NCBI RefSeq assembly: GCF_015627125.1 | Contig: NZ_VTDO01000001.1 | Span: 310,001-374,000 of the forward strand | DNA from: Acinetobacter rathckeae | GTDB lineage: Bacteria > Pseudomonadota > Gammaproteobacteria > Pseudomonadales > Moraxellaceae | DNA: 64,000 bases | Direction of reading: 5' to 3' | Shown here: positions 1,299-46,258 of the stretch, piece by piece | How the letters are laid out: the number at the start of each line of letters is the position of its first letter | Numbering within the stretch: the stretch's first letter is position 1 | Translations under genes and position numbers: made by a program | The notes under the pieces: model-generated | What the model saw: only the letters and a program-made list of their open reading frames with translations | Databases searched by the model: none | Told to the model about the DNA's origin: nothing

Positions 1299-1320
1299 TT
1301 GTCATATAACTGTCATAATT
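1299..1320 (+). promoter_or_regulatory. Pho box (PhoB site) upstream of pit
   Basis: Two adjacent 11-bp direct repeats, TTGTCATATAA and CTGTCATAATT, match the PhoB consensus of CTGTCAT followed by an A/T-rich tetramer, repeated every 11 bp. The box ends 46 bp before the ATG at 1367. An AT-rich CAATAT about 10 bp downstream could be the -10 element, the usual layout when PhoB replaces the -35. Confidence 0.7.
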
Positions 1321-1366
1321 AGGGTGAACAATATGCCCATCTTATAGAGTCTATTATTTTGGCCGT

Positions 1367-41303: not shown

Positions 41304-41357
41304 TTGTCATAAAACATAATTAAATCGTCATCTATTTGTAACTTAATTGTCATATAA
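41304..41357 (+). promoter_or_regulatory. Pho box array of pstS
   Basis: Three contiguous 11-mers, TCGTCATCTAT, TTGTAACTTAA and TTGTCATATAA (41325-41357), have the PhoB repeat period. A further TTGTCATAAAA lies at 41304-41314. A possible -10 TGTAAT (41369-41374) lies 11 bp after the last repeat. The array begins right after the ddc terminator and ends 77 bp before pstS. Confidence 0.7.
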
Positions 41358-41434
41358 ACAAATCAGAATGTAATCAAGTAAGCACGGTATCACATCACTT
41401 TACGACAAGTAATGTAAGTTTGAGGCATTAAGAG

Positions 41435-42472
41435 ATGACAATGAAGTTAAGTAAAAAATATGCAACACTTGCTCTAGCGATTTCAGGCGTAGCTTTTGCT
41501 GTAAATGCAAATGCTGCACGTGACACAATTCAAATTTCTGGTTCTTCAACAGTATTGCCATACGCAAGTATCGTTGCTGAAGAGTTTGGTAGCACCTTTC
41601 CGCAATTCAAAACACCAGTTGTTGGTTCAGGTGGTACGGGTGGTGGTTTGAAGCAGTTCTGTCAAGGTGTTGGTGACAATACTATCGATATTGCAAATGC
41701 TTCACGTAAAATTAAAGAGACTGAGGTTGAAGGTTGTAATAAAGCAGGTGTTCGTCAAATCCAAGAAATTAAAATTGGTTATGATGGTATTGTTTTTGCA
41801 TCAAATGCTTCAAAGCCAGCCTTTAAGTTAAAGCCTTACCATGTATTTACTGCCCTTGCAGCACAATTGCCATCTAATGGTAAACTGGTTCCAAACCCAT
41901 ATACAAACTGGAATCAAATTGACTCATCTCTTCCAAATGAGCCAATTACACTTGTTATTCCAGCGTCTAACCATGGTACACGTGAAGTGTTCCAAGAGAA
42001 AATGGTTGAAGCTGGTTGTGAAACCTATGAATATTACAAAAATCTACCAAAAGATGATCGTGCTAAAGCATGTTCTACTTTCCGTAAAGACGGCCGTGTC
42101 GTTGAAATTTCTGGTGACTACACTGAAACACTGGCACGTTTGAAAACTTCACCGAATGCAGTAGGCGTATTTGGTTTAGGATTCTATGATCAAAACAAAG
42201 ATCGTCTACGTGTTGCAACTGTAAATGGTGTAGAGCCGAGTGAGCACACTGTACTGAATGGAACGTATGCTGTATCACGTCCTTTATTCTTCTATGTAAA
42301 AGGTGAACATACTAAAGTGATTAAAGGTTTACCACAATACGTAGAATTTTTCTTAAGTAAAAAAGTTTCAGGAAAAGGTTCAAAACTCGACAAAGCAGGT
42401 TTGATCTCTATGTCTGATGCTGAACGTGCACAAGTACTTGCTGACTTTAAAGCCGGTAAATATGTGAAGTAA
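41435..42472 (+). CDS. pstS: Phosphate-binding periplasmic protein
   Basis: Captures phosphate for the PstCAB importer. The signal peptide (about 1-27) ends in N-A-N-A. The mature part shows the phosphate-contact segments I-S-G-S-S-T-V-L-P-Y (about 33-42), G-S-G-G-T-G-G-G-L-K-Q-F-C and N-H-G-T-R-E-V-F. The order and length (345 aa) fit the longer PstS type found in Acinetobacter and Pseudomonas. A Pho box array lies upstream. A terminator-like hairpin separates it from pstC, so pstS mRNA may be made in excess. Confidence 0.93.
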   Translation: MTMKLSKKYATLALAISGVAFAVNANAARDTIQISGSSTVLPYASIVAEEFGSTFPQFKTPVVGSGGTGGGLKQFCQGVGDNTIDIANASRKIKETEVEGCNKAGVRQIQEIKIGYDGIVFASNASKPAFKLKPYHVFTALAAQLPSNGKLVPNPYTNWNQIDSSLPNEPITLVIPASNHGTREVFQEKMVEAGCETYEYYKNLPKDDRAKACSTFRKDGRVVEISGDYTETLARLKTSPNAVGVFGLGFYDQNKDRLRVATVNGVEPSEHTVLNGTYAVSRPLFFYVKGEHTKVIKGLPQYVEFFLSKKVSGKGSKLDKAGLISMSDAERAQVLADFKAGKYVK

Positions 42473-42485
42473 TGCAATATATTTT

Positions 42486-42521
42486 AAGGTGAGGATGAGG
42501 TGACTTGTCCCCACCTTTTTT
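42486..42521 (+). terminator. Terminator-like hairpin between pstS and pstC
   Basis: AAGGTG-a-GGA pairs with TCC-c-CACCTT (one mismatch), followed by a run of T. It lies within the 79-nt pstS-pstC gap. It probably ends most transcripts after pstS and lets a fraction read into pstCAB. Confidence 0.7.
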
Positions 42522-42551
42522 GGTTTTTAGATAATACATAGCGGAGATGAT

Positions 42552-43931
42552 ATGAATCTGCTTCTTTTGGGTGTGTTACTTGCTGTTATTGCGATCGGCT
42601 ATCAGTTTGGTCTGAAAAAAAGTCGCCGCATTGCAGGTCAGGGCAATAATTCCGCAACGTTACATTCACGACCAGGTTATTATGGTGCGCTTGTTGCTCT
42701 GTGGTGTGGTGTGCCAGCATTATTAATTTTTGGTCTTTGGAACTTTATTGAGCCGATATTATTACGTCAAATGGTCTTTTCTCAAGTTCCAGCAGATGTT
42801 CTCTCACATCTAGATCCTTCTAGTCAGTCAGTATTACTCGACCGTGTTAAAGCTATTGCTTCTGGTTTTGGTGTAACAGATCAGGCACAGCCTTATGAAA
42901 TAGCCGCTGCAACGCAATACGCACAAGCTATGAAAATAGGTGACTATGCACAGTTTGCTGTAGTCATTTGTATTGCATTGGTCGGTCTGGTTTTTGCACA
43001 TAAAAAAGTAACACAACAATATCGTGCAAGAAATTATGTAGAAAAATTTGTGCGTATTGCATTGGCACTATGTTCAGGTGTTGCCATTTTGACAACTGTT
43101 GGTATTGTAATGTCAATGTTTAGTGAAGCATTGAGATTTTTCCATTTTGTTAGCCCTACAGAGTTCTTTTTGGGCACGCAATGGGATCCAGGGTTTACCA
43201 CAAGTGGTACATCAGATGGTACTTATGGCCTATTGCCTTTGCTTTGGGGTACTTTACTGGTCAGTGCAATTGCACTATTAGTTGCTATTCCTGTAGGGCT
43301 GTTTATTGCCATTTACTTAGCTGAATATGCATCGCCTCGTTTGCGTGCATGGGCAAAGCCCGTGATTGAAATCTTGGCAGGTATTCCGACCATTGTTTAT
43401 GGTGTTTTTGCACTCATGGTTATTGGCCCATTTTTTAAGTCAGTTGGTGATATGGTGGGTATCCACATCAACGCAACGAGTGCATTAACAGCAGGATTTG
43501 TGATGGGAATCATGATTATTCCATTTGTATCATCACTATCAGACGATATTATTACCCAAGTACCTCGTTCATTGCGAGATGGTTCTTTGGGTTTAGGTTC
43601 AACTAGATCAGAAACCATTCGTCAAGTGGTTTTACCTGCAGCATTACCAGGTATTGTTGGTGCATTTTTGTTAGCAGCATCACGTGCAATTGGTGAGACG
43701 ATGATTGTTGTTCTTGCAGCTGGTAATAGTCCACTGTTACAGATTAATCCTTTAGAAGCCGTTTCTACAGTAACAGTGACTATTGTAAACCAGTTAACGG
43801 GTGATACCGATTTTGCAAGCCCACAAGCATTGGTGGCATTTGCACTGGGGTTAACACTGTTTGTGATTACTTTGGGTCTAAATATTATTGCACTGTATAT
43901 TGTGCGTAAATACCGTGAGCAATATGAATGA
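42552..43931 (+). CDS. pstC: Phosphate ABC transporter permease PstC
   Basis: Inner membrane half of the Pst channel. The C-terminal 250 residues carry the permease core, with L-A-G-I-P-T-I-V-Y-G-V-F-A-L near residue 278 and the coupling loop S-L-G-L-G-S-T-R-S-E-T-I-R-Q-V-V-L-P-A-A-L-P-G-I near 350. The N-terminal 190 residues are extra compared with E. coli PstC (319 aa) and include three hydrophobic helices and a periplasmic segment. The stop overlaps the pstA start (ATGA). Confidence 0.92.
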   Translation: MNLLLLGVLLAVIAIGYQFGLKKSRRIAGQGNNSATLHSRPGYYGALVALWCGVPALLIFGLWNFIEPILLRQMVFSQVPADVLSHLDPSSQSVLLDRVKAIASGFGVTDQAQPYEIAAATQYAQAMKIGDYAQFAVVICIALVGLVFAHKKVTQQYRARNYVEKFVRIALALCSGVAILTTVGIVMSMFSEALRFFHFVSPTEFFLGTQWDPGFTTSGTSDGTYGLLPLLWGTLLVSAIALLVAIPVGLFIAIYLAEYASPRLRAWAKPVIEILAGIPTIVYGVFALMVIGPFFKSVGDMVGIHINATSALTAGFVMGIMIIPFVSSLSDDIITQVPRSLRDGSLGLGSTRSETIRQVVLPAALPGIVGAFLLAASRAIGETMIVVLAAGNSPLLQINPLEAVSTVTVTIVNQLTGDTDFASPQALVAFALGLTLFVITLGLNIIALYIVRKYREQYE

Positions 43932-45316
43932 GTATGAATAATAGTTCTGTAGATGCAGCATTGGCTAGTCAGTCATCGGTTGATAAAAAGCAAGAAAGAA
44001 AGCAAATTATTATTGATTCTTTGTCAAAGCGTCATAGTAAAGAAAAACGTTTTAAACTGCTGGGCTTACTGTCGGTGATTACGGGTCTTTTATTTGTCGC
44101 ACTTTTATTTGGTAGTATTTTATACAAAGGTTTGCCAGCATTTTGGCAAACGAGTATGACTGTACCAGTTTACTTTGACCCTAAACTGATTGATGCAGGA
44201 GCCCCACCTGTTAAACAACCAGATGAATCTCCTGCTATTTTCCAAGAGCGTTATATTGATTGGCAAACTAAAATGAGCATGGTGGATTGGGACGCACTGA
44301 TTACACATGCAATGATTGCCAAAGATAAAGCCCTTGCAGGCAAAGAAAGTGATCTATCTAGTATTTATACTAGCTCAGAAACCTATCGCTTGCGTGATAT
44401 GGTGTTTGCAGATCCGAGTTTAGTTGGTAAAACAGTTGATTTGAAATTCTTAGCAGATGCAAATGTTGATGTGTGGCTGTCAGGGAAAATTGATCGCAGT
44501 TTACCAGCAGAGCAACAACAGCTAAGCCCTGAAATTCGTCAATTAGCTGATCAAATGAAAGCACAAGGCCTTTTAGAAAATACCTTTAACTTTAAAATTT
44601 TCACAAATACAGACTCTAGAAGTTCTCCTGCAAGTAGTGGTTTAGCAGGCGCATTTATGGGTTCTCTATTTATGATGTTGATCGTGATCTTTATTTCGAT
44701 TCCAATTGGTGTGGCCAGTGCGATTTATCTTGAAGAATTTGCAAAGAAAAATTTGATTACAGATATTATCGAAGTCAACATTAATAACTTGGCAGCAGTG
44801 CCATCTATTGTCTTTGGTTTATTGGGTGCTTCTATTTTTATCGGTTGGATGCATTTACCTCTTTCCGCACCTTTAGTAGGTGGGTTAGTACTGAGTTTAA
44901 TGACTTTGCCAACGGTGATTATTACCACACGTGCATCGCTTAAAGCAGTACCGCCATCTATTCGCCAAGCGGCACAAGGTTTGGGTGCATCTAATGTACA
45001 AACCGTTTTTCACCATGTATTACCACTGGCTTTACCGGGTATTTTAACAGGTGCTATTATTGGTGTAGCACAAGCTTTGGGGGAAACTGCACCATTGCTA
45101 TTGATTGGTATGAGTGCGTTCGTGGCAAGTGTTCCAACAACACCACTCGATCAGTCTACAGCATTACCAGTACAAGTATTTTTATGGCAGGGTAATGAAT
45201 TACGTAACTTCTTTGAAGGACGTACTGCTGCAGCAATTATTGTATTGCTTGCCATGATGATTGGACTAAATAGCTTAGCAATTTGGTTACGAAAGAAATT
45301 TGAAGTACGCTGGTAA
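43928..45316 (+). CDS. pstA: Phosphate ABC transporter permease PstA
   Basis: Second membrane subunit. A charged N-terminus and a membrane helix (about 40-60) are followed by a periplasmic domain of about 170 residues (DUF3333-like position) that E. coli PstA lacks, then the permease core with N-N-L-A-A-V-P-S-I-V-F-G-L-L near residue 288 and the loop G-L-G-A-S-N-V-Q-T-V-F-H-H-V-L-P-L-A-L-P. It is 462 aa, against 296 aa in E. coli. The ribosome site of pstB starts right behind its stop. Confidence 0.92.
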   Translation: MSMNNSSVDAALASQSSVDKKQERKQIIIDSLSKRHSKEKRFKLLGLLSVITGLLFVALLFGSILYKGLPAFWQTSMTVPVYFDPKLIDAGAPPVKQPDESPAIFQERYIDWQTKMSMVDWDALITHAMIAKDKALAGKESDLSSIYTSSETYRLRDMVFADPSLVGKTVDLKFLADANVDVWLSGKIDRSLPAEQQQLSPEIRQLADQMKAQGLLENTFNFKIFTNTDSRSSPASSGLAGAFMGSLFMMLIVIFISIPIGVASAIYLEEFAKKNLITDIIEVNINNLAAVPSIVFGLLGASIFIGWMHLPLSAPLVGGLVLSLMTLPTVIITTRASLKAVPPSIRQAAQGLGASNVQTVFHHVLPLALPGILTGAIIGVAQALGETAPLLLIGMSAFVASVPTTPLDQSTALPVQVFLWQGNELRNFFEGRTAAAIIVLLAMMIGLNSLAIWLRKKFEVRW

Positions 45317-45331
45317 TTGGGGAGTTTTAGT

Positions 45332-46258
45332 ATGACAATGAAGAATACGTTAGAGCCAACTCGTACGATAGAGAAGGAAAGTCAGGTGCCATTACAGTCA
45401 GATACAAATCAGAATCAGTCTATGCCAAAAGAACAGCCTAAAATTAGTATAGGTAGTTTTGATCAACCAAAAACTTCTGAAAAGTTGGCAGATCAAACCA
45501 AAGAAGTGAAAATTAGTGCCCAAGATGTACATGTTTACTATGGTGAAGCAGAAGCGATTAAAGGCATTGATATTGATGTTTATCAAAATGAAGTCATTGC
45601 TTTTATTGGGCCATCAGGCTGTGGTAAATCAACATTTTTACGTACACTTAACCGTATGAATGACACCATTGATACATGTCGTGTGACAGGTAAGGTATTA
45701 TTAGATCAACAAGATATTTATGATCCAAATCTAGACGTGGTGTTGTTACGTGCTCAAGTAGGTATGGTTTTCCAAAAGCCAAACCCATTTCCAAAGTCTA
45801 TTTTTGATAACGTTGCTTACGGACCAAAATTACATGGTTTAGCATGTAATAAATATGATCTTGAAGAAATCGTTGAAAACAGTTTACGTAAAGCTGGTTT
45901 ATGGGAAGAAGTGAAAGAGCGTTTAAACCAACCAGGTACTGGCTTATCTGGTGGTCAGCAACAACGTTTATGTATTGCACGTACTATTGCGGTAAGCCCA
46001 GAAGTTATTTTAATGGATGAACCTTGTTCAGCACTTGACCCAATTGCTACAGCAAAAGTAGAAGAGTTAATCTCTGAATTGTCAGACCAATATACAATTG
46101 CTATTGTGACACACTCAATGCAACAAGCAGCACGTGTATCACATCGTACAGCGTACTTCCATTTGGGTGATTTAATTGAAGTGAACTCGACTGAAAAAGT
46201 ATTCACTCAGCCAGATCATGAGTTGACAGAAGCGTATATTACAGGTCGTTTCGGTTAA
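45332..46258 (+). CDS. pstB: Phosphate ABC transporter ATP-binding protein PstB
   Basis: ATPase of the Pst importer. Walker A is G-P-S-G-C-G-K-S-T, the signature L-S-G-G-Q-Q-Q-R and Walker [17 protein letters not shown] at 45317 opens the frame earlier, but GGGGAG (45318-45324 region) fits the ATG at 45332. A hydrophilic N-terminal extension of about 55 residues rich in Gln, Lys, Thr and Ser precedes the ABC domain. No phoU gene follows, which differs from the E. coli pst operon. Confidence 0.93.

Follow-up and report, generated by a model that had tools for sequence, protein, structure and literature searches.

A genus-wide Pho box before pit in Acinetobacter shares its spacing with pstS promoters and points to probable PhoB-dependent induction at low phosphate

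The pitA and pitB genes of Escherichia coli encode PiT-type inorganic phosphate transporters, and a control search of E. coli returned a match to PF01384, the family to which the gene described here also belongs. This gene, pit, lies in a 64,000-nucleotide stretch of Acinetobacter rathckeae (contig NZ_VTDO01000001.1, positions 310,001 to 374,000 of the forward strand; hereafter the window), and it is preceded by a near-consensus Pho box, the candidate binding site of the response regulator PhoB. The regulation of pit differs among species (PMC4415409). In Streptomyces coelicolor, pitH2 is a Pit gene activated by a Pho response regulator via direct-repeat units (PMC7866108). However, that regulator is PhoP instead of PhoB, and pitH2 is one of two pit genes, whereas 11 of the 15 Acinetobacter genomes searched had a single PF01384 gene (the other 4 had two). 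The pit gene of Sinorhizobium meliloti is also under phosphate-stress control (PMC8829014), but it is lowered when phosphate is scarce and has a gene for an accessory protein, while the geometry in Acinetobacter predicts induction. According to a review, the two pit genes of the E. coli type differ, one being expressed constitutively and the other induced when phosphate is low (PMC7866108). For E. coli pitB, neither significant regulation nor detectable binding of PhoB upstream was reported (PMC10294691). In A. baumannii at low phosphate, phosphate transporters left unnamed in the main text were induced and a Pho box was predicted before olsB (PMC11828411); pit is not mentioned in the main text of this RNA-seq paper. 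A literature search of limited coverage found no paper on the response of Acinetobacter pit to phosphate. Pho-controlled pit genes are already known elsewhere, regulated upward in Streptomyces (pitH2) and downward in Sinorhizobium, and the Acinetobacter case would add a genus-wide example.

The Pho box consists of two 11-bp repeats at 1299-1320, with 46 bp (1321-1366) between it and the pit start codon, ATG at 1367. An earlier note on this DNA had claimed the repeats, this distance and the PiT identity of the downstream gene, and all three were borne out, the last by a PF01384 match above the cut-off (Table 1). We name the gene pit and not pitA because its product scored 451 bits with the NCBIfam PitA model NF033774, under the cut-off of 800. 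The box matches the consensus CTGTCATAWAWCTGTCAY at 17 of 18 positions and was the sole site of at least 15/18 on either strand of the window. Sites with up to three mismatches appeared on average 0.43 times per window in dinucleotide shuffles, and the pit box has one mismatch. At the base composition of the window, sites of at least 17/18 are expected 0.0014 times per window and 0.06 times per 2.75 Mb, and one strand of 6 Mb of simulated first-order sequence contained no site of at least 16/18. Within its own genome, 10 matches to TGTCATANANNTGTCA with at most one mismatch were found (reversed control, 2), the pit box being the only exact one. These expectation figures, together with the conservation across the genus given below, rule out a chance match as the origin of the box. 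An ordinary promoter scan of 900-1500 yielded 5 sites, where shuffles averaged 4.2 (standard deviation 1.9), and none of the 5 lay at the Pho box; an Rfam search of the same region with E up to 1 gave no match.

The upstream regions of pit were compared for the window and the best 80 of 125 relatives (79 Acinetobacter and one Moraxellaceae metagenome-assembled genome). Of these 81 regions, 71 or 72 distinct sequences entered the conservation counts and 50 distinct leaders those on the leader. The earlier note had proposed conservation of the repeats across Acinetobacter pit genes as a check on its claim, and the claim survived it: at least 18 of 22 consensus positions were retained in 80 of 81 upstreams, the exception being A. 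apis with 15. The best 22-bp match had 22 consensus positions in 32 upstreams, 21 in 42, 20 in 4, and 19, 18 and 15 in one each. Among the 71 distinct upstreams, columns 0-34 were mostly near-fixed (TTGTCATATAAYTGTCAYAATTTAATTNAACAATA) with variation at 17, 22, 25, 27 and 30, and the near-invariant block extended through a -10-like hexamer, AACAAT. The flanks were far more variable, with parts of columns -34 to -12 conserved outside the flower/bee group too. This group comprises the species of the window, A. boissieri, A. baretiae, A. pollinis, A. nectaris and A. apis (6 species), which are Acinetobacter of flowers and bees. The window was placed near A. boissieri and A. baretiae because its PiT protein is 95% and 94% identical to theirs, respectively; among these three the sequence is divergent up to the box, and the box and the -10 are retained. 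The 21-mer TGTCATATAAYTGTCAYAATT, allowing two mismatches, was present in 164 of 175 genomes of the genus (reversed control, 3 of 175), these matches not being individually tied to pit. Among the 11 genomes without it, one that is apparently A. apis (G017) has a degraded box, and in another (G162) the box differs in sequence and is followed by TATAAT at the usual offset. A third (G098), listed as 99% complete, gave no PiT match at E up to 0.001.

The distance between box and hexamer was conserved too. Of 72 distinct pit upstreams, 70 had a hexamer of the form NANNNT exactly 10 bp past the 18-bp box (AACAAT in 55, AAGAAT in 15; the two exceptions read AAAAAA), and the fraction at the next best offset between 0 and 25 was 0.61. 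An identical spacing is generally given for E. coli phoA. As a positive control we took the pstS promoter of Acinetobacter, which by analogy with other bacteria would be PhoB-activated. TIGR00975 as a probe for PstS gave weak matches in 3 of 8 Acinetobacter genomes, none over the cut-off, and the PstS of the window was used as query instead. Thirty loci were fetched and 29 were parsed on the last repeat pair, 26 of them distinct; the locus left out of the count (L220) is without TGTCATA and has CAAAAT at the same offset. All 26 carried NANNNT at offset 10 (CAAAAT in 20, CACAAT in 4, CAGAAT in 2), with a fraction of 0.54 at the next best offset. The pstS promoter therefore resembles that of pit in its 11-bp repeats, 18-bp box, 10-bp gap and NANNNT hexamer ending in AAT. 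Unlike pit, which has two near-perfect repeats, pstS usually has a third upstream repeat (CGTCAT...) and weaker single repeats; in the window, each pstS repeat is singly weaker than the pit box. At PhoB-activated promoters, the pho box is described as strictly spaced from the core promoter (PMC10294691).

The same offset was found in all five Acinetobacter second-pit genes that were read. The genome of the window has such a second pit (L151:766-2397, 66% identity), with a degraded first Pho repeat (CTGCAATCAAACTGTCATAATC) and CAAACT at the same 10-bp offset. Beyond the genus, as in paralogues and in the best-18-mer reading of pstS given below, the box scores count T as C and run above strict scores. 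On this scale, five pit loci from two other genera of the family (70-72% identity) all had a box of 16/18 with NANNNT at the offset. Scores were 13-14 for three second-pit genes from a neighbouring genus and 10-12 for four short distant homologues; three further loci with an unreadable start region were left out of the upstream comparison. In addition, 30 other boxes from the genus, differing in their core, were read, of which 21 had NANNNT at offset 10 and 9, including two porin boxes, had not; 16 of the 21 read CATAGT, most of them before one secreted-protein gene. TTGACT in upstreams of the A. nosocomialis/pittii type was considered as a -35 and rejected, as a 17-bp spacer from it reaches no -10.

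Table 1. Positions of the Pho repeats, -10-like hexamers and genes at pit and at the pstS comparator (window coordinates unless a locus is named).
Feature	Position	Strand	Basis or remark
Pho box repeat 1, 11 bp, TTGTCATATAA	1299..1309	+	sequence; near-invariant in Acinetobacter pit upstreams
Pho box repeat 2, 11 bp, CTGTCATAATT	1310..1320	+	sequence; near-invariant in Acinetobacter pit upstreams
Predicted -10, AACAAT	1327..1332	+	exactly 10 bp past the 18-bp box (1299-1316); conserved offset
pit, PiT-family inorganic phosphate transporter, 542 aa	1367..2995	+	PF01384, E 3.3e-88, over cut-off
Covarying leader hairpin, up to 7 pairs	L009:3939-3979 and other alignment rows		between -10 and pit ATG
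Comparator: three 11-bp Pho repeats before pstS, CGTCATCTATT, TGTAACTTAAT, TGTCATATAAA	41326..41358	+	sequence
Comparator: pstS -10-like CAGAAT	41364..41369	+	10 bp past the 18-bp box 41336-41353
Comparator: pstSCAB phosphate ABC transporter	41435..46258	+	PstC, PstA and PstB over NCBIfam cut-offs; PstS matches TIGR02136 below cut-off

PhoB was above its family cut-off in all eight genomes searched, and that of the window's genome scored 332 bits against a cut-off of 296. Its C-terminal half aligned to the E. coli PhoB chain 1gxp (E 8.5e-42), which we take to be a PhoB-DNA complex, and it retained the EDRT[IV]DVHIRRLRK of E. coli PhoB, presumably the recognition helix region. Judged from its sequence, the PhoB encoded in the same genome has a DNA-binding domain like that of E. 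coli. Because the box is conserved, its offset is shared with pstS and PhoB is present, activation by phosphorylated PhoB (PhoB~P) is the best reading: the Pho box is probably a functional PhoB site, the activator half of a PhoB-dependent pit promoter that is induced at low phosphate. When phosphate is scarce, PhoR would phosphorylate PhoB, and a PhoB dimer would occupy the two 11-bp repeats, standing in for a -35 element. The bound PhoB~P would then recruit RNA polymerase to the weak -10 AACAAT 10 bp downstream. We infer that the pit transcript starts about 28 bp 5' of the ATG, near 1339, and pit would be induced jointly with pstSCAB, probably above a basal expression. The earlier note had allowed either induction or repression, depending on promoter geometry. 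The alternatives are not equal, since a box-to-hexamer offset equal to that of the pstS promoters of the genus favours induction over repression. With the same type of switch and the same spacing as pstS in nearly all Acinetobacter genomes examined, pit is probably up at low phosphate.

Several observations weigh against this activation. AACAAT agrees with TATAAT at only 4 of 6 positions, and the mean number of TATAAT matches in pit is higher at offset 2 (TTTAAT, 4.42) than at offset 10 (3.97), as it is in pstS at offset 4 (TAAAAT in half, 4.23) compared with offset 10 (4.00); offset 10 draws its support from its conservation and from the A and T at hexamer positions 2 and 6. When pstS was anchored on the best-scoring 18-mer, CANAAT fell at offset 10 in 22 of 30 loci and the other 8 were in another register. 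Six pit loci at 57-62% identity included three boxes of at least 16/18, none with NANNNT at the offset; among the other three, L208 (15/18) has it. The low-affinity phosphate uptake of Acinetobacter johnsonii 210A is said to be constitutive. Finally, TATAAT is found inside the Pho box itself (columns 6-11) in 66 of 71 distinct upstreams, and 65 of 71 have a leader stem, placed between the -10 and the start codon, in which at least 6 of 7 pairs can form.

Given the in-box TATAAT, PhoB would sit over an ordinary promoter. A switch between two promoters is the likeliest of the rivals, though we consider it unlikely. A housekeeping promoter P1 (TTYATN, 16 bp, in-box TATAAT) would act at plentiful phosphate, and PhoB~P would cover P1 and start P2 (AACAAT). 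In doing so PhoB would swap start sites and drop the structured leader, Pit would stay on in starvation, and the pit of the flower/bee group, which would have lost P1, would be left PhoB-dependent. Such a switch would fit the constitutive low-affinity uptake mentioned above. TTYAT stands at column -16 in 54 of the 66 upstreams with an in-box TATAAT, but it makes a poor -35 and is missing there in 12 of 66 (in L016 only through a contig end), and a sequence near TATAAT is already called for by the Pho consensus. Across the 50 distinct leaders, pairing was seen in 88.5% of cells, and 6 of the 7 pairs had changes on either side; shuffling gave a mean of 1.5 such pairs, and none of 500 shuffles came as high. 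Sliding the stem partner by 1 to 3 columns lowered every pairing measure. Both arms of the hairpin would lie within a transcript from P1 and not within one from P2, a start near column 40 losing most of the 5' arm. If the stem acts as RNA it needs both arms, and the start would therefore be earlier than predicted, fitting a housekeeping -10 in the Pho box. However, 32% of shuffled leaders attained 6 of 7 pairs, the outermost pair does not form in 18 of the 50 leaders and the fifth in 9, RNAalifold gave only -0.17 kcal/mol for the same leader alignment, and the covariation may be inflated by relatedness. The six flower/bee species, that of the window included, are without TTYAT and without the stem, and 5 of 6 have an altered in-box TATAAT; these losses may be a single evolutionary event, so the promoter switch is kept as no more than an unlikely rival.

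It is improbable that PhoB~P at the box represses pit, shutting off a constitutive promoter at low phosphate, as in S. meliloti, where PhoB is reportedly the agent of the decrease. The S. meliloti gene is lowered under phosphate stress, reciprocally to Pst (PMC8829014), and the in-box TATAAT would permit repression. A repressor site, however, has no need of a -10-like hexamer at a distance of exactly 10 bp downstream, and such a hexamer is kept here as at pstS. In the group of the window the Pho box is retained although TTYAT is gone and the in-box hexamer mostly altered. It is very unlikely that PhoB binds the box to no effect, or that some other conserved promoter element merely looks like a Pho box. 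In E. coli, many PhoB sites are transcriptionally inert, and pitB is among the predicted targets that were not confirmed, but the inert sites are intragenic by the title of that report (PMC10294691), whereas the pit box is intergenic, near-invariant over the genus and at a fixed offset to its -10-like hexamer.

Other candidate Pho sites of the genus were noted as well. A gene for a small secreted protein (..PEEI..AVN[DN]QE..) was repeatedly, at five loci, preceded by a near-perfect Pho box followed 10 bp later by CATAGT, and this gene is possibly an unrecognised Pho target of the genus. The genome of the window also has a Pho-like box, TGTCATATAAATGACA, before an acid phosphatase gene (L084:1501-2314) that matches a PhoC model below the cut-off. 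In other Acinetobacter, Pho-like boxes were seen before phoB (L134) and pstS (L135), and among the matches listed the box upstream of phoB, TGTAATAAGCCTGTCA, was found in at least 4 of 8 genomes; a Pho-like box at this place is consistent with autoregulation of phoB. As to the surroundings of pit, no open reading frame of at least 60 aa was found on either strand in 347-1298, the roughly 950 bases 5' of the Pho box. In A. baylyi and A. brisouii the neighbour upstream of pit is a divergent gene, presumably metH from its likeness.

Acinetobacter is a genus studied for polyphosphate storage. If pit is activated by PhoB as proposed, the division between a constitutive low-affinity Pit and a starvation-induced Pst would fail in Acinetobacter, and placing Pit within the starvation response would alter how phosphate uptake and release are modelled. 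The regulation of Acinetobacter pit would then be opposite in sign to that of Sinorhizobium, and unlike that of the main E. coli gene.
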